The position numbers and the translations under genes were made by a program. Below the pieces are notes generated by a model that ran no database searches, was not told the DNA's origin, and was given only the letters and a program-made list of their open reading frames with translations. 49,267 nucleotides of DNA from Candidatus Nanoarchaeia archaeon (lineage in GTDB: Archaea; Nanobdellota; Nanobdellia; Woesearchaeales; SKGA01): NCBI GenBank assembly GCA_028691765.1, contig JAQUYS010000004.1:1-49267 (forward strand), written 5' to 3'. Shown here piece after piece: positions 1,774 to 27,540 of the stretch (position 1 is the stretch's first letter; every line of letters starts with the position of its first letter).

Positions 1774-1798
1774 GTTTTCCAGAGGAAATGAAGGGGTT
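1774..1798 (+). promoter_or_regulatory. ORB-like candidate origin recognition box
   Basis: GTTTTCCAGAGGAAATGAAGGGGTT: TTCC..GGAAA dyad followed by a G-string, as in archaeal ORB/mini-ORB elements; near-identical to 27375-27398. Confidence 0.65.
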
Positions 1799-1932
1799 AA
1801 ATTTAAATAAATCTAACAAAAAACCACATATTACAGGCATTTTTTAATCTCCATAGGAAATTTAAAATAATTTCTTTATAAATATTTCAAGTAATTTTAT
1901 TTATAAATATTTTTAAATAAGAAATAGGAGTG

Positions 1933-1942
1933 TTTATAAATA
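1933..1942 (+). promoter_or_regulatory. TATA box/promoter for TBP gene
   Basis: TTTATAAATA in the AT-rich intergenic region upstream of 2022. Confidence 0.5.
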
Positions 1943-2021: not shown

Positions 2022-2588
2022 ATGGCTGAAAAAAGCTTAGAACAATTGAAAAAAGAATTAGATATAACAATTGTTAATATTGTTGTTTCTACAAGTTTAG
2101 ACCATGACATTCCATTAGAGAAAATGGCTGCAAATCTTTCTAACACTGAATACAATCCAGAACAATTTCCAGGATTAGTAATAAGAATTAAAGAACCAAA
2201 AACATCTGCATTAATATTTAGTTCAGGTAAAGTTGTTTCTACAGGGGCTAAAAGCTTGGAAATGGTTAGAGAATCATTAAATAAAATCATTGAAACTTTA
2301 AAGAAAATAAACATAACAATTAAAGTTGTTCCTGAAATCAATGTTCAAAACATGGTTGCTAGTGGAAATATAGGTATGGATTTAAATTTGAATACCTTAG
2401 CTATGAAATTAGACAACACAGAATATGAACCAGAACAATTCCCTGGATTAGTATTTAAATTGCCTGCTGCAAAAGCAACATTTTTACTATTTAGTAATGG
2501 AAAAATTGTTTGTACAGGTACTAAATCTGTGGAAGAAGTTTACAGAGCAGTAGATATGCTTATTAAAGTTCTTAAAGAAAAGAAATAA
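2022..2588 (+). CDS. tbp: TATA-box-binding protein
   Basis: Two-repeat TBP fold: NTEYNPEQFPGLVIRIKEPKTSALIFSSGKVVSTGAKS and NTEYEPEQFPGLVFKLPAAKATFLLFSNGKIVCTGTKS. Confidence 0.95.
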   Translation: MAEKSLEQLKKELDITIVNIVVSTSLDHDIPLEKMAANLSNTEYNPEQFPGLVIRIKEPKTSALIFSSGKVVSTGAKSLEMVRESLNKIIETLKKINITIKVVPEINVQNMVASGNIGMDLNLNTLAMKLDNTEYEPEQFPGLVFKLPAAKATFLLFSNGKIVCTGTKSVEEVYRAVDMLIKVLKEKK

Positions 2589-2697: not shown

Positions 2698-4731
2698 ATG
2701 GATGTTGGGGAACAATTACAAATATTTCAAAATTTTTTTGAAAAATTCTATTATGAGAATTTAATTTCTGCTTTTCAAAGAGGCGAAAATTATATTGTAG
2801 TTGATTTTCAAGATTTAGCAGTTTTTAATCCTGAATTGGCTCAAAAAGTTTTAGATTCTCCTGAAGAATGTTTTAAAACTGCAAGCTTATCTATTGAAAG
2901 ATTAGATTTACATGAAGATAAAAAGGAAAAAGAATTTTTTGTAAGATTTAAAAATATTCCTTTATCACAAAAAGTTTCTATAAGAAATATACGGAGCAAA
3001 CACATAGGAAAATTAATACAAGTTGATGGAGTTATACGTCAAAAAGGAGATGTTCGACCAAAAGCAATATCTGCAAAATTCGAATGTCCTTCATGTGGAA
3101 ACATAATGAATATAATTCAAATCGATGAAAAATTTAGAGAACCTTCCCAATGTGGTTGTGGTAGAAAGGGTGGATTCAAATTATTAGATAAATTGTTAAT
3201 CGATATACAAAAAATAGTTTTAGAAGAACCCACAGAAAATTTAGATGGTGGTGAACAAGCTAAACGATTTAAAATTTTATTACAACATGATTTAGTTAGT
3301 CCTATAGGAGAAAAGAAAACAAATCCAGGTAGTCAAGTAAGATTAGTTGGCGTTGTTTCAGAAATACCCATCTCTCTTTCAAGTGGGGGAAAATCAGTTG
3401 AGTTTGATTTAATATTAGATGGAAATCATGTAGAACCATTACAAGAAGATTTTGGTGCAGTTATCATTACACCTGAGGAAGAAGAAAAAATAATTCAATT
3501 ATCTCAAAAACCAACCTTGATAAAAGATTTAGTTACTAATTTAGCTCCTTCAATATATGGTTATGAAAAAATAAAAGAAGCATTGTTATTGCAACAATTT
3601 GGTGGAATTCGTAAGCCACGAAGTGATGGAATTAAAACAAGAGGGGACATACATATATTGTTGGTAGGGGATCCTGGTGCGGCGAAAAGTCAGTTATTAA
3701 AAAGAATGTCTGTTATAGCTCCAAAATCTCGATTTGTTTCTGGAAAAGGTGCTTCTGGTGCAGGATTAACTGCAGCCGTTATAAAAGATGATTTTCTAAA
3801 AGGATGGGCTTTAGAAGCAGGAGCATTAGTTTTAGCAAACAATGGTTGTGTTTGTATTGATGAGTTAGATAAAATGACTCCTGAAGATCGTTCTGCGATG
3901 CATGAAGCATTAGAGCAACAAACTGTAACTATAAGTAAAGCGAATATTCAAGCAACATTAAGATGCCAAACAACAGTTCTGGCTGCAGCGAATCCAAAAT
4001 ATGGAAGATTTGATCCATATGAAATTTTAGGAAAACAAATTGATTTACCTCCTGCTTTAATGTCTCGTTTTGATTTAATGTTTCCAGTTAGAGATGTACC
4101 TGATAGGGAAAAAGATACTCAAATTGCTAAATTTATTTTAAATTTACACCAAGATAGTACTCGAACTGAAAGAACTGTGGAAATAGATACAAATTTATTA
4201 AAAAAATACATTGCCTATGCTAAGAAAAATGTTTTTCCAAAATTAACTAATGAAGCATTAGAAGAAATAGAAAAATATTATGTTAAAATAAGAAACTCGG
4301 GAGGGGATTCAGGCGGAATTAAATCCGTTCCAATTACCGCGCGTCAACTAGAAGCATTAATACGTTTAACTGAAGCATGTGCTAAAGTTAGATTATCTCA
4401 AATAGCAAATAGAGAAGATGCAAAAAGAGCAATAAATTTATTACACTATTCTTTAGGTCAAATCATGTTGGACCCTGAAACTGGAAGATTAGATATAGAT
4501 AGAATTACAACAGGAATTACCGCGAGTCAAAGAAGTCATATTGCGATTGTTAAAGAAGCATTAATTAATTTAGAAAATATAACTATGAAAAAAATACTTC
4601 CGGTAGCAGATGTTATAAAAGAATGTGAAAGTAAAGGTATGGAACTATCTAAAATAGAAGAAACTATTGAAAAACTAAGTCGGAGTGGAGACATATACAA
4701 ACCTAAAAAAGATTTTATTTCAAGATTGTGA
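2698..4731 (+). CDS. mcm: Replicative DNA helicase MCM
   Basis: N-terminal zinc motif, Walker A GDPGAAKSQLLK, Walker B CIDELDKM, Arg finger SRFDLMF, C-terminal wHTH. Confidence 0.96.
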   Translation: MDVGEQLQIFQNFFEKFYYENLISAFQRGENYIVVDFQDLAVFNPELAQKVLDSPEECFKTASLSIERLDLHEDKKEKEFFVRFKNIPLSQKVSIRNIRSKHIGKLIQVDGVIRQKGDVRPKAISAKFECPSCGNIMNIIQIDEKFREPSQCGCGRKGGFKLLDKLLIDIQKIVLEEPTENLDGGEQAKRFKILLQHDLVSPIGEKKTNPGSQVRLVGVVSEIPISLSSGGKSVEFDLILDGNHVEPLQEDFGAVIITPEEEEKIIQLSQKPTLIKDLVTNLAPSIYGYEKIKEALLLQQFGGIRKPRSDGIKTRGDIHILLVGDPGAAKSQLLKRMSVIAPKSRFVSGKGASGAGLTAAVIKDDFLKGWALEAGALVLANNGCVCIDELDKMTPEDRSAMHEALEQQTVTISKANIQATLRCQTTVLAAANPKYGRFDPYEILGKQIDLPPALMSRFDLMFPVRDVPDREKDTQIAKFILNLHQDSTRTERTVEIDTNLLKKYIAYAKKNVFPKLTNEALEEIEKYYVKIRNSGGDSGGIKSVPITARQLEALIRLTEACAKVRLSQIANREDAKRAINLLHYSLGQIMLDPETGRLDIDRITTGITASQRSHIAIVKEALINLENITMKKILPVADVIKECESKGMELSKIEETIEKLSRSGDIYKPKKDFISRL

Positions 4732-5480: not shown

Positions 5481-7670
5481 ATGTTAAAAGCGTTTAACCC
5501 TCGAAAATATCAATTAGAGTTATATGAGAATTCAATAAATCAAAATACACTAATCGTATTGCCTACAGGATTAGGTAAAACTGCAATCGCTATGTTATTA
5601 GCTGCGAAAAGATTGATTGATTTCCCAAATAACAAAATTCTATTTTTAGCTCCAACAAAACCATTAGTAGAACAACAAATGAATTCGTTTAAAAAACAAT
5701 TTTTATTTTCAGAAGATAACTTTAATTTATTTACTGGTTTGATTTCGCCTGAAAAAAGAAAGGAATTATATCAAAAAACTAAATTTATTTTCTCCACACC
5801 ACAAACTATTGAAAATGATGTGATTTCTGGAAATATTGATCTAGAATGCGTATCTTTAATTGTTTTTGATGAAGCACACAGAGCAACAGGAAATTACGCA
5901 TATGTTTTTTTAGCTCAAAAATATATTGAGATTTCAAAAAATCCCTTAATTTTAGCACTTTCAGCTTCTCCTGGTTCTCAAAAAGAAGAAATTGAACAAA
6001 TATGTAAGAATTTATTTATTGAAAATGTACAATATAAATCTTCAAATGACGAAAGCTTAAAAGAATATTCTCAAAAAACCGATTTGATTTGGAAAGAAAT
6101 TGAATTAACTCCGAACATAAATAAAGCCATCGCTTATTTGAACAAATGCGTAACTATTAGAAAAAATAAATTATCTGATTTAGGTTTTAAAAAAACATCA
6201 TTTAATACAAATTTAGATATTTTAAATGCACAAAAAGAGATACAAAGTTCAATTGCCCAAGGAAAAACAGATTATAACGCTTTAATTGCGATGAGTGTTT
6301 TAGCTGAATTAATAAAATTAAATCATTCATTAGAGTTAATAGAAAGTCAATCTTTATTTGCTGCAAATCAATATATTTCTGGAATATTTTCAAAAAGTAA
6401 AATTTCTAAAGCCAAATCCATACAAAATTTAGTTAAAGATGTAAATTTTATTTCAGCTATTGCTACGATAAGAGATGCGATTAACAATAATGAAATACAC
6501 CCTAAAATAATATTTTTAAAAAAAGAGATCGCTTCAATATTAAGTCAAACTCCTAATTCAAAAATAATTATATTTACACAATTTAGAGATACTGCAACAA
6601 ATATAAAAGAAGAATTAGGAACTCTCGGTTCTGCGAATATATTTTTTGGACAAGCAAAAAAAAATGGTGTGGGATTTTCTCAAAAACAACAAAAAGAAAT
6701 ATTAGAAGATTTTACAAACAACAAATTTCAAATTTTAATTGCGACAAGTGTTGCTGAAGAAGGATTAGATATTCCCTCAGTAAATCATGTTTTTTTCTAT
6801 GAACCTATACCAAGTGCAATTCGTTCAGTGCAAAGAAGGGGAAGAACAGGTAGACATTCAAAAGGAAATGTTACTATTTTAATTTCTAAAGGAACTCGAG
6901 ATGAGGCCTATAGATGGGCATCATTTAATAAAGAAAAAAATATGTTTAAAGTTTTAAAAGACTTTTCTACAACCCCTGAAAAAACTCCACAAAAATCTTT
7001 AACATCCTATGTACAACAAACCAATTTAACAATGTATGTTGATCATAGGGAAAAAGGTTCAAATCTCGTAAAAACATTACTTTCTCAAAACATTGATTTA
7101 AAATTAAAACAATTAGCGGTTGGAGATTTTCTAATATCTAGCGATGTTGTTGTTGAGTTTAAAAATGTACGAGATTTTGTAGATTCCATAGTTGATGGTA
7201 GATTACTAACACAATTAAAATCTTTAATTCAATATTCAAAACCACTAATTCTAATTGAAGGTGAAGAAAATATATATTCGATTAGAAATGTCGATCCTTT
7301 AGCCATAGATGGCATGTTGGCAACAATTTATCTATCGTATAAGATTCCTTTATTCCGAACTAAAAATTCCGAAGAATCAGCAAGGTTATTAATAGCGTTT
7401 GCAAAAAAAGAACAAGAAAATAAAAATTCTTCTTTCACATTTCATTCTGCAAAACCCATGGATGATAATTCATTACAAGAATATATTGTTTCATCATTTC
7501 CTGCCATAGGCGGTGCCTTAGCAAAAAAAATAATGTCTCATTTTAAAACGTTAAGTTCTTTCTTTAACTCATCTAAAGAAGAATTGGTTCAAATAGATCA
7601 ATTAGGCGAGAAAAAAGCAAATGAAATACTGCGGATTAGAAATTTAAATTATGGTTCTAATTCAAAGTAA
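5481..7670 (+). CDS. hef: Hef-like SF2 helicase/ERCC4-domain protein
   Basis: Helicase motifs (LPTGLGKT, DEAH, QRRGRTGR), ERCC4 domain (VDHREKG...VEFKNVRDFVDSIVDGRLLTQ) and C-terminal HhH. Confidence 0.92.
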   Translation: MLKAFNPRKYQLELYENSINQNTLIVLPTGLGKTAIAMLLAAKRLIDFPNNKILFLAPTKPLVEQQMNSFKKQFLFSEDNFNLFTGLISPEKRKELYQKTKFIFSTPQTIENDVISGNIDLECVSLIVFDEAHRATGNYAYVFLAQKYIEISKNPLILALSASPGSQKEEIEQICKNLFIENVQYKSSNDESLKEYSQKTDLIWKEIELTPNINKAIAYLNKCVTIRKNKLSDLGFKKTSFNTNLDILNAQKEIQSSIAQGKTDYNALIAMSVLAELIKLNHSLELIESQSLFAANQYISGIFSKSKISKAKSIQNLVKDVNFISAIATIRDAINNNEIHPKIIFLKKEIASILSQTPNSKIIIFTQFRDTATNIKEELGTLGSANIFFGQAKKNGVGFSQKQQKEILEDFTNNKFQILIATSVAEEGLDIPSVNHVFFYEPIPSAIRSVQRRGRTGRHSKGNVTILISKGTRDEAYRWASFNKEKNMFKVLKDFSTTPEKTPQKSLTSYVQQTNLTMYVDHREKGSNLVKTLLSQNIDLKLKQLAVGDFLISSDVVVEFKNVRDFVDSIVDGRLLTQLKSLIQYSKPLILIEGEENIYSIRNVDPLAIDGMLATIYLSYKIPLFRTKNSEESARLLIAFAKKEQENKNSSFTFHSAKPMDDNSLQEYIVSSFPAIGGALAKKIMSHFKTLSSFFNSSKEELVQIDQLGEKKANEILRIRNLNYGSNSK

Positions 7671-9476: not shown

Positions 9477-11489
9477 ATGGACATATCTTTTTCATTATCT
9501 TATTATAAACGTAAAGAAGTTCAATCCGCAATAATTAGAGAATCACACGATAAAGAGTGTTCTGTTCGATTTATAAATGAGGGTTTTGGAAAAAGACCGG
9601 ATATTTTGTCATATGAAAATGATGTTTTAGAATTGGCAAAAAAGAAAGCAACTTCTTTTCACTGTTCAGAAGAATTGTGGTTTAATCCTTTAGCTTTAAG
9701 TACAGGTATGAAAAGGCGAGAATTAGATGATTTAAGAAAAGGTTGGGATTTAATTTTAGATATTGATTGTCCTGATTGGGAGTTATCTAAATTAACTACT
9801 CATTTATTTGTGAAGGCTTTGGAAGCACATGGCATAACTACAATTTTTTGTAAATTCTCAGGAAATAAAGGCTTCCATATCGCAGTCCCATTTGAAGCAT
9901 TTCCTGAAAAAGTATCTTATGAAGGTCAAGTAGTATTTTTTAAAAATTTGTTTCCAGAAGGAGCAAGAAAAATGGCTTTGTATTTGTTAAGTTATATCAC
10001 TGAAAATTTTGCTAAAATAGAGGACGATTATGTATTGTTCTTGGATGAATACAAATTTTCATTTAAACAACTTCAAAATATCGCTAAAAAAAATTCTCAT
10101 TCAGTCATTGCATATCGTTGTCAAAATTGCAAAACTATTTCTGAAGAGTTTCCCAAAAAATCAAAATCAACTTATGAGTGTGTTAAATGCGGAACCATAA
10201 ATGTATCTAAAAATAATGCAGATGTAATTGCGTGTTCTTCTTGCGGTTATCCTGTGCAAGCAAAAATTGAAAAAAACATTTGTAAACATTGTAATCATTC
10301 TTCAAAATTCGAAAAAATTTTTAATTTTTTCGCAGTAGTAGATGTAGATACAATACTCATAGCATCAAGACATTTATATCGTATGCCTTATTCTTTACAC
10401 GAGGTATCCAAATTAGTTTCCACACCAATATCCACATCCAATATTTTAAATTTTAAAAAAGAAAATGCATCTCCTGAAAAATGTTCTTTTGATAAGCCAT
10501 TCATCATTCGAGAAAAAGCAAAAAAAGGTGAAGCTTCAAATTTAGTTTTGTTAGCATTTGATTCTTCATTCAATGAAACCAAGCGCAAGGATGAAAATGT
10601 TCAAAAAGAAATAGTGTTACCAGAAACAGCATTATCTGAAGAGTTTTTCCCACCATGCATTAAGAAAATTTCATTAGGACTTGAAGATGGAAAAAAACGA
10701 GCGTTATTCGTATTATTGAATTTTTTAAGAACTGTTGGATGGTCATTAGAACAAATAGAAGAATATGTTTATGAGTGGAATTCAAGAAATTCTGAACCTT
10801 TGAGAGAACAATATATTAAAGGTCAATTAAGCCAAATTAAACAAGGAAAAAAACCAATTCTCCCACCAAGTTGTTCAAATAAAAATTATTACACCTCAAT
10901 ACAAATATGTTCGCCAGATGGATTTTGTCAACACATAAAAAATCCTTCTCATTATACAAAAAATAAATCTGAACTCAATCCATCTAAAAAACAAAAAGAA
11001 AAAAAGAAAGTTGAAAAACCTAGAGAAGTCGTAATTGTGGATGACAAAAACAACGAAATTAATTTTAAATTACTTCAAAATATAACTAATGACGATTTAT
11101 TAAGAAGATGCGTTTTATTAATTAAAAACAGTGGAGATGGATTTTTACTTGCCAAAGATAAAGCTGAAAAATGGATTTTGCCATTGGAAACTTATGTAGA
11201 AAAAAAAGAAGATGTATCTAAGGCAATGAAAAGAATTGCAAAATCGAATATAGGTCTTCGTACATTTTTTCCACGAGAAATAAATTTACCAAAAGAATTA
11301 TTGAAAAAAGATAACTTTTTTAATTATTTTTTCTATACTGTTGTTGATAGGCACATAAACAATTTTAATCCTTGCGAAGACTTTCAAGAGTTAAAATGGT
11401 TCTCCAAATCTGAGTTGTTAAAAAAACTAAAAGAAAAAGAAAATTCATTTTCGAAAGAAATAAATGAAATATTAAAACTCAATATTTAA
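9477..11489 (+). CDS. Single-chain DNA primase: PriS catalytic domain with inserted zinc ribbons, PriL C-terminal Fe-S-like domain, C-terminal NUDIX-like domain
   Basis: PriS motifs LDIDCPDW, FSGNKGFHI, VDVDTILIASRHLYRMPYSLH; four CxxC pairs at ~10112-10310; FPPC...PPSC...QIC...FCQH as in PriL-CTD; C-terminal WILPLETYVEKKEDVSKAMKRIAKSNIGL. Confidence 0.88.
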   Translation: MDISFSLSYYKRKEVQSAIIRESHDKECSVRFINEGFGKRPDILSYENDVLELAKKKATSFHCSEELWFNPLALSTGMKRRELDDLRKGWDLILDIDCPDWELSKLTTHLFVKALEAHGITTIFCKFSGNKGFHIAVPFEAFPEKVSYEGQVVFFKNLFPEGARKMALYLLSYITENFAKIEDDYVLFLDEYKFSFKQLQNIAKKNSHSVIAYRCQNCKTISEEFPKKSKSTYECVKCGTINVSKNNADVIACSSCGYPVQAKIEKNICKHCNHSSKFEKIFNFFAVVDVDTILIASRHLYRMPYSLHEVSKLVSTPISTSNILNFKKENASPEKCSFDKPFIIREKAKKGEASNLVLLAFDSSFNETKRKDENVQKEIVLPETALSEEFFPPCIKKISLGLEDGKKRALFVLLNFLRTVGWSLEQIEEYVYEWNSRNSEPLREQYIKGQLSQIKQGKKPILPPSCSNKNYYTSIQICSPDGFCQHIKNPSHYTKNKSELNPSKKQKEKKKVEKPREVVIVDDKNNEINFKLLQNITNDDLLRRCVLLIKNSGDGFLLAKDKAEKWILPLETYVEKKEDVSKAMKRIAKSNIGLRTFFPREINLPKELLKKDNFFNYFFYTVVDRHINNFNPCEDFQELKWFSKSELLKKLKEKENSFSKEINEILKLNI

Positions 11490-23708: not shown

Positions 23709-25097
23709 ATGACATTGATGCAAAACATTCTCAACATAATTCCGGAAGTTAAAGCTCCTAAAGAAAAAAAATTACCATTTGGTCAAAAGTTAAAATGGAC
23801 TGCCTTCGTTTTAATTCTGTTTTTTATATTAGGTGCAGTTCACTTATATGGTTTAGGTGCTAACGCATTATCTCAATTTGAGTTTCTATCCGTTGTATTA
23901 GGAGCTAGTTTCGGTTCAATAATTTCATTAGGTATTGGTCCCATTGTAACTGCATCCATCGTTTTACAATTATTAAATGGGGCAGGAATTTTAAATTTTG
24001 ATTTAACAACTCATCACGGTAAAGAAAGTTTTCAAGGAACCCAAAAATTATTAACATATTTTTTCATAATTTTAGAAGCATGCATATATGTTTTAATGGG
24101 AGGTTTATCCCCTAAAGTCGGAATTCATCCAGCCATATTGATAATTCAATTATGCATAGGTGCATTAATCATAATGTATTTAGATGAAGTAATAAACAAA
24201 TGGGGCTTTGGAAGTGGAATATCATTATTTATTGCAGCAGGAGTATCACAATCCATATTCATACAAGCATTAAGTCCGCTACACCCAGTTACAGCTGGAG
24301 TTTCAGATCCAAATACATATGTTGGAGCAATACCTCAAATATTCAAATCATTAACAATGGGAGATTCTTTAACCGTCGGTTTAAAATTAGCAGTATTGAT
24401 TGCAACAGTAGCTGTATTTTTAATTGTTGTTTTCGCACAAGCAATGAAAGTAGAAATTCCATTATCTTTTGGAAGAATAAGGGGACATGGAATAAGATGG
24501 CCTTTGAATTTTATTTACACTAGTGTAATTCCAGTTATTTTAGTTTCAGCATTAATTGCAAACATACAATTATTAGCGAGATTAGTTAGTAATGCAGGAA
24601 TTTCTTGGCTATCTTGGCTAGGAACTTTTTCAGGTGGTCAAGCAGTAGGAGGTCTTGCTGCATGGTTAACCAACGTTAATTTACTTAGTAAAATTGTTCA
24701 AGGAAATGTTGTTGCAATGGATTTCGCACAAGCTGGTGTTTACATGCTTATAATGATTGCAGGATCCGTATTATTTAGTTGGTTCTGGATGCAAACATCT
24801 GGATTAGATCCTCGTGCACAAGCCAAACAAATGATGGCATCAGGTTTACAAATTCCAGGATTTAGAAAAGATGCTCGAGTTTTAGAGCGATTATTAAAAA
24901 GATACATATATCCGTTAACAGTGATGGGAGGAATATTTATAGGATTCTTAGCATCAATAGCGAATATGACAGGGGCTTTAGGAAGTGGCACGGGATTATT
25001 ATTAACCGTTATGATTATTTACAAATTATATGAAGATGTAGCTAAACAACATCTTGAAGATATGAATCCAGCATTACGTAAAATGATGGGGAGATAA
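23709..25097 (+). CDS. secY: Protein translocase subunit SecY
   Basis: Multi-TM SecY sequence; synteny after uL15. Confidence 0.95.
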   Translation: MTLMQNILNIIPEVKAPKEKKLPFGQKLKWTAFVLILFFILGAVHLYGLGANALSQFEFLSVVLGASFGSIISLGIGPIVTASIVLQLLNGAGILNFDLTTHHGKESFQGTQKLLTYFFIILEACIYVLMGGLSPKVGIHPAILIIQLCIGALIIMYLDEVINKWGFGSGISLFIAAGVSQSIFIQALSPLHPVTAGVSDPNTYVGAIPQIFKSLTMGDSLTVGLKLAVLIATVAVFLIVVFAQAMKVEIPLSFGRIRGHGIRWPLNFIYTSVIPVILVSALIANIQLLARLVSNAGISWLSWLGTFSGGQAVGGLAAWLTNVNLLSKIVQGNVVAMDFAQAGVYMLIMIAGSVLFSWFWMQTSGLDPRAQAKQMMASGLQIPGFRKDARVLERLLKRYIYPLTVMGGIFIGFLASIANMTGALGSGTGLLLTVMIIYKLYEDVAKQHLEDMNPALRKMMGR

Positions 25098-26651: not shown

Positions 26652-27263
26652 TTAAATTTCTAAACTTTTATTTTGGTTTTTTATTAATAAAGTTCTGTTA
26701 TCTATAACAACAACGCTCAATAAACCCAATTTTTGTAATTCTTTCACGTGTCTATACAATGTTGCTCTTGAGCAATATTTTTTTTCATCTACAAACCGAG
26801 TTTTTAGTCCAATCATATCTACATCCATGTGTTCTACCACATCCATTATTTTTTGTTTAACCCAGTCTTTTTTATTTTGACTAATTATATTTGATTCATA
26901 AATTCTTTTTTCTGTTTTGGTTGCAGAAAAATCAGTTTCGGTTGTTAAGTTTGATTCAGAAGATGATTCTTCGATAGGATTTAATTCTTTTATATTCTCT
27001 TGTTTCAGGGGTTTTTCGTTTAGTTTGGAATCAACATATTCTTTTAATTCTTCGATTTTTTTCACAAATTCTTCCTTTAACCAAATAAAATTATCTTCTG
27101 AGGGAGATTCTAAATCGGATTTTTTTGAAAATAACGCATTTTTAGCCAAAATACTTTGATTCTCAAGAATTCTTGAGTTTTGGGCTTCTAAATATTTTAT
27201 TTTTCTCTCTAAATAAGTCAATATTTCAAGTTTTTTGTTATTTTTGTTGTTTTTTTGTTCCAA
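26652..27263 (-). CDS. Coiled-coil + C-terminal winged-HTH protein
   Basis: N-terminal coiled coil; C-terminal CSRATLYRHVKELQKLGLLSVVVIDNRTLLI. Confidence 0.65.
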   Translation of the reverse strand: MEQKNNKNNKKLEILTYLERKIKYLEAQNSRILENQSILAKNALFSKKSDLESPSEDNFIWLKEEFVKKIEELKEYVDSKLNEKPLKQENIKELNPIEESSSESNLTTETDFSATKTEKRIYESNIISQNKKDWVKQKIMDVVEHMDVDMIGLKTRFVDEKKYCSRATLYRHVKELQKLGLLSVVVIDNRTLLIKNQNKSLEI

Positions 27264-27308
27264 TTTACCCTCAACATCAAAAATGTCTTCTTTTTTATAA
27301 ATTTAGTC

Positions 27309-27540
27309 TTTGTCTCAAAAATCTCACTTGAGACGAGATTGAGACAAATATTTTATTAAAATGGCTCTAAAATGGTTTTCCACAGGAAATAAGGGGGTGT
27401 CTCAAAAATCTCAAAAATCTCAATGAGACTGAGACAAATGAGACGAAATAAGCTAAAATGGATTTAAACAGTCTAAAACTAGTGTATTTCTGCGTCTCGG
27501 GTTGAGACTATTTTGAGATAAATTGATTTGCACTAGTCTC
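27309..27540. promoter_or_regulatory. GTCTC/GAGAC motif array with nested inverted repeats
   Basis: 10 GTCTC/GAGAC pentamers (27312, 27330, 27341, 27399, 27425, 27431, 27440, 27494, 27504, 27536); perfect 10-bp IR TTTGTCTCAA 27309-27318 / TTGAGACAAA 27339-27348. Confidence 0.85.
27375..27398 (+). promoter_or_regulatory. ORB-like candidate origin recognition box
   Basis: GTTTTCCACAGGAAATAAGGGGGT; matches archaeal ORB dyad + G-string and the copy at 1774-1798. Confidence 0.7.

Follow-up and report, generated by a model that had tools for sequence, protein, structure and literature searches.

A promoter-linked ORB upstream of tbp-mcm in Woesearchaeales, a probable regulatory site for Orc1/Cdc6

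A 25-base box (GTTTTCCAGAGGAAATGAAGGGGTT) at 1774-1798 (+) of the window, that is, the whole stretch of 49,267 nucleotides analysed here, lies upstream of the genes for TATA-binding protein and the replicative helicase in a genome of the order Woesearchaeales. The first-pass annotation proposed that it marks either a replication origin or a site at which Orc1/Cdc6 regulates replication genes, and the question is which of these the locus resembles. To our knowledge, little is understood of how archaea link the supply of helicase with initiation, and publications on replication control in DPANN archaea are few. In the open-access literature nothing was found on Woesearchaeota origins or on ORB promoters of mcm or tbp. 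If ORBs do control tbp-mcm, the initiator doubles as a transcription regulator, like bacterial DnaA. The spacing rules described below are open to direct, cheap testing, and the analysis also yields a predicted replication origin for these uncultured archaea. All evidence for the role of the ORBs is comparative sequence. The features of the window are:

1777-1796 (+): full ORB TTCCAGAGGAAATGAAGGGG (dyad and G-string), most readily interpreted as the distal ORB in the promoter of tbp-mcm
1849-1861 (+): mini-ORB-like dyad at +72 relative to the ORB (83-87 bp being the norm of the order), a candidate for an eroded proximal ORB
1875-1881 (+): TATA-like TTTATAA, 98 bp from the ORB start
1900-1906 (+): TATA-like TTTATAA, 123 bp from the ORB start
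1933-1939 (+): TATA-like TTTATAA, 156 bp from the ORB start (158-159 bp in G001, G002 and G003, of the window's own family)
2022-2588 (+): tbp, TATA-binding protein (Pfam PF00352, E 1.9e-60)
2698-4731 (+): mcm, replicative helicase (Pfam PF00493, E 6.5e-90)
27378-27397 (+): second window ORB, a separate locus of the same ORB type, flanked by a divergent regulator-like gene and by the 27648-radA genes

The box is ORB-like, as had been suggested from the letters alone. Its dyad (TTCCANNGGAAA, also given as TTCCAGAGGAAA; 1777-1788) has no mismatch, and neither has the G-string (TGAAGGGG; 1789-1796) on the 3' side of the dyad when set against the pattern of the order. Near-identity to a second site in the window was also borne out: 20 of 23 positions agree with 27376-27398, and not one match of this kind arose in 100 dinucleotide shuffles of the window. 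Throughout the genome (1,093,016 bases in 99 contigs, G+C 0.30) only three sites lie within three mismatches of the box, compared with zero for a reversed control pattern, and the only strong ORBs are those at window 1777(+), window 27378(+) and C88:2557(+). When the genome was scanned with a PWM built from tbp-upstream sites of other species, with the window's own family left out, the 1777 ORB was the top match of all 1.09 Mb (score 35.1); maxima in 10 Markov-simulated genomes were 12.7 to 21.5. A chance motif is ruled out by the shuffles, the simulated genomes and the order-wide conservation described below.

Replication genes do follow downstream. Beyond tbp and mcm (2698-4731), a 228-aa protein without a Pfam match is followed by a Hef-like helicase/ERCC4 protein (5481-7670), with an M3 peptidase next, and by a fused primase S+L (9477-11489). 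GC skew in the window tracks gene strand and is negative chiefly over the minus-strand genes at 33-40 kb.

Conservation before mcm in related genomes, which had been named as a check on the box, was surveyed at 80 mcm loci (L216-L295), 74 of which had enough upstream DNA. An ORB was counted if it lay on the same strand, within 400 bp upstream of tbp (whose starts were extrapolated from tblastn), with ≤ 2 mismatches. Such an ORB was present at 39 of the 74 Woesearchaeota loci (expected 0.12), and at 32 when only ≤ 1 mismatch was allowed (expected 0.05), the expectations being derived from the remainder of the same loci. Neither an opposite-strand ORB nor the reversed pattern occurred within these 400 bp at any of the 74. 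The surveyed loci are related, so the counts are not independent, although MCM identity to the window was only 51 to 61% among them. As about half of the loci have no recognizable ORB before tbp, the ORB there is not indispensable. Anywhere in the genome, a match with ≤ 2 mismatches was found in 138 of 145 genomes of the order, and the reversed control was much rarer. The PWM and the ORB pattern were both learned from these loci; the spacing and TATA results below are independent of that.

In a phylum-wide sample, counted by comparing listed coordinates, the order contributed 44 genomes and other orders of the class 16. An ORB lay near tbp in at least 23 of the 44, whereas among the matches listed none of the 16 had one near tbp-mcm. 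This was despite the proximity of tbp and mcm in nearly all of these 16, and most of them do have ORBs near cdc6. The link between ORB and tbp is therefore rejected as a class-wide feature, and the promoter ORB seems either to be particular to this order or to have been lost in the others. Several genomes of other orders have a second ORB approximately 6 to 9 kb from cdc6, away from tbp-mcm (G148:C52:16436, G149:C28:2403, G152:C20:40593, G158:C2:9721 and G168:C18:73771).

The arrangement of the conserved ORBs is tied to the promoter. Where two ORBs precede tbp they are direct repeats, 83 to 87 bp apart at 12 of 13 loci, and partner sites found with the PWM lay 82 to 88 bp away in 16 of 18 cases. 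Measured from the start of the last (promoter-proximal) ORB, TTTATAA begins at exactly 59 bp in 13 of 53 loci and at 73 to 74 bp in 19 of 53, often with a second TTTATAA 23 to 26 bp after the first. The bases preceding TATA are AAAAGTATTTATAAAT-like, a BRE/TATA. The most frequent single ORB-TATA distance was common to 15 of 49 loci, compared with a maximum of nine in 2000 trials in which ORB positions at the 49 loci were shifted by up to 15 bp. The spacing between box and core promoter is thus constrained and conserved, as in an initiator-regulated promoter, and at 36 to 50 bp upstream of TATA the ORBs occupy an activator-like position. Pairs of TATA boxes 23 to 26 bp apart are found in many tbp promoters (L216-L295), and also in the window (1875 and 1900); the second of such a pair lies near the expected start site, where TBP may repress its own gene.

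Rearranged loci show which genes the box accompanies. In one family (f7; G009, G134 and G091) tbp has moved away, and two ORBs 83 bp apart are found immediately upstream of mcm, with TATA still at 59 or 73 bp. ORBs precede both tbp and mcm at L218, and mcm at L245, L252 and L226. In G058 the ORB has stayed with tbp and mcm lies elsewhere without one. As the ORB is kept with whichever of the two genes, it belongs to the tbp-mcm unit, and the arrangement in G058 indicates that the target (tbp or mcm) differs between lineages.

The window departs from the typical promoter in its proximal part. The stretch at 1799-1930, earlier suggested as an unwinding element, is indeed AT-rich (84% A+T, the 99.7th percentile of 132-bp windows in the genome), but with three TTTATAA motifs it is better read as a promoter with TATA boxes. 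Their distances of 98, 123 and 156 bp fit the rule of the order only if the window ORB is the distal one, and it is read as such because the TATA box at 156 bp corresponds to that at 158 to 159 bp from the distal ORB in G001, G002 and G003. Of the half-similar dyad reported near 1849-1861, the dyad itself stands (CTCCATAGGAAAT); its G-string is absent, and a second full ORB is unsupported by the PWM (-8.8). A same-strand dyad this good is expected by chance within 245 bp at about 1.5% (129 such dyads genome-wide, both strands). At +72 it could plausibly, if tentatively, be an eroded proximal ORB one helical turn closer than the norm. The relatives are similarly uneven: in G001 two ORBs are spaced 84 bp apart, the proximal one being weak; in G002 the proximal position, at +85, is taken by a dyad lacking the G-string; and in G003 there is only the distal ORB. 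All three keep the synteny TrmB-TraB-ORB-tbp-mcm with cdc6 and tbp-mcm on different contigs, and no cdc6 was found within 45 kb downstream of tbp-mcm in the window genome. The ORB before tbp-mcm thus persists in this family despite separation from cdc6. In G002 (L296:244) and G003 (L297:54) the TrmB-family gene at the head of this synteny has a further ORB upstream; the counterpart of this ORB in the window would fall at the start of the contig.

The protein most likely to read these boxes is the product of the sole cdc6 gene of the genome (C67:23277-24509, -). It is of the initiator type, being closest in PDB to Sulfolobus Orc1-1 (E 1.5e-108) and Aeropyrum ORC1 (E 6.5e-98). Four wH arginines are reported to read ORBs (PMC9738581), three of which are kept here (RR of TQRR intact, RGR changed to KGR). 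In the relatives, ORBs upstream of cdc6 are inverted with G-strings outward, at spacings that vary from 107 to 613 bp for most loci. The same PWM found such a pair on C67:

C67:24639(-) and C67:25010(+) (24639-25029; L006:4639-5029): inverted ORB pair upstream of cdc6, predicted origin

Taken singly, each of these ORBs scores near the chance maximum (19), but the 350 bp enclosed by the pair have an A+T content of 86.6%, a value unsurpassed in the genome. Inverted ORBs around an AT-rich core are the described layout of archaeal origins (PMC4010727, PMC7776575), and a replication origin upstream of cdc6 on C67 is likely. The window site, with one full ORB and a dyad in the same direction only, has no inverted ORBs around an AT-rich core and no adjoining initiator gene (cdc6 being on another contig), so it is not the best origin candidate.

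An origin at the window site, primary or secondary, at which Orc1/Cdc6 on the ORB would melt the adjoining AT-rich stretch and load MCM, is accordingly unlikely. The full ORB does adjoin an intergenic stretch of 84% A+T with replication genes downstream, and in many relatives tbp-mcm lies approximately 8 to 12 kb from cdc6 and its ORBs. However, the ORBs before tbp-mcm are direct, one-sided and at preferred distances from TATA, and it is upstream of cdc6 that inverted ORBs surround the AT-rich core (in this genome, the 350 bp with the highest A+T content), with the variable spacing that suits an origin and not a promoter. Direct one-sided ORBs together with the canonical layout at cdc6 rule out an origin as the leading reading, and of the two possibilities first proposed it is regulation that fits, given direct repeats on one strand at preferred TATA distances across the order. 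The same geometry weighs against a titration or negative site, in the manner of datA, at which near-origin ORBs soak up Orc1/Cdc6 after early duplication: this needs neither a preferred TATA distance, nor a single orientation, nor a tie to one gene, and the site in the window's family has left the neighbourhood of cdc6 yet persists. There is precedent in the downstream ORB cluster proposed to control, by repression, Haloarcula oriC2 (PMC4010727, PMC3936714), the site is close to cdc6 and its ORBs in relatives, and the tbp-side ORB of this genome is closer to consensus than the origin ORBs (35 versus 19). Titration as the main role is nevertheless improbable, and it could be a side effect of a promoter role. 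It is very improbable that the box is read instead by an Orc1 paralogue or an unrelated regulator whose specificity resembles that for ORBs. In several families a small regulator-like gene also has an ORB next to it, and some genomes with tbp ORBs have no detected cdc6, probably owing to MAG gaps. The single Cdc6 of the genome, however, is of the initiator type by sequence, and one PWM picks up both the tbp-side box and the inverted pair upstream of cdc6. Moreover, cdc6 was missing more often from genomes without an ORB (4 of 7, versus 15 of 138 with one; Fisher p 0.006, confounded by completeness).

The reading favoured here, at a probability of roughly 0.7, is that the single Orc1/Cdc6 binds the box to control transcription of tbp-mcm. 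For an Orc1/Cdc6 site at a set distance upstream of TATA, regulation of transcription is the simplest reading, and the likely origin elsewhere together with the promoter-tied geometry makes the window site a regulatory promoter element rather than an origin. We infer both binding by Orc1/Cdc6 and transcription as the controlled process from the sequence, conservation, orientation and preferred spacings of the ORBs, which were observed. The ancestral promoter would have had two same-direction ORBs approximately 84 bp (eight helical turns) apart, and a strong TATA box whose start lay 59 or 73 bp beyond the proximal one; in the window genome the distal ORB would be intact and the proximal ORB eroded. 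From a site upstream of the core promoter, the bound initiator would tie the output of helicase and TBP to its own amount or nucleotide state, comparable to DnaA boxes in bacterial promoters. The upstream position suggests activation, and repression may also be possible. That the whole order uses Orc1/Cdc6 in this way, through an ORB-84-ORB-59/73-TATA promoter forming a DnaA-like feedback loop that arose independently in DPANN archaea, has slightly better than even odds; in that case radA and the small regulator gene might be among further genes under ORB control.

The predicted element has traits in common with known systems. Like oriC1-type ORBs of Pyrococcus, Sulfolobus and haloarchaea, it has a dyad and a G-string with polarity, in a genome with an initiator-type Orc1/Cdc6 whose ORB-reading residues are mostly kept. 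Unlike them, the window site is neither beside cdc6 nor inverted, flanks no AT-rich core and sits in the tbp-mcm promoter at preferred TATA distances. DnaA boxes are likewise reported outside the origin at bacterial replication-gene promoters (dnaA, nrd and others; PMC8203912); the initiator there is non-homologous, whereas the targets predicted here are archaeal helicase and TBP genes. Sulfolobales Orc1-2, a DNA-damage transcription regulator, is likewise an Orc1-family protein at promoters, as is predicted here, but it is a non-initiator reading ANTTTC and not ORBs (PMC9738581), in contrast to the ORBs and initiator-type Orc1 of this genome.

Other genes neighbouring ORBs have heterogeneous functions. 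The second window ORB lies amid many TGAGAC/GTCTC repeats (27300-27530), with the divergent small regulator-like gene at 26652-27284 (-), and is conserved in G001, G002 and G003; ORBs also occur beside homologues of that gene at L128, L158, L169, L310 and L315. The third ORB of the genome (C88:2557; L002:1501) lies 116 bp before an uncharacterized 146-aa gene, which is close to a gene resembling that for ribosomal protein S6e, and a similar site (TTGCAGTGGAAATGAAGGGG) is found at G073:C26:85.
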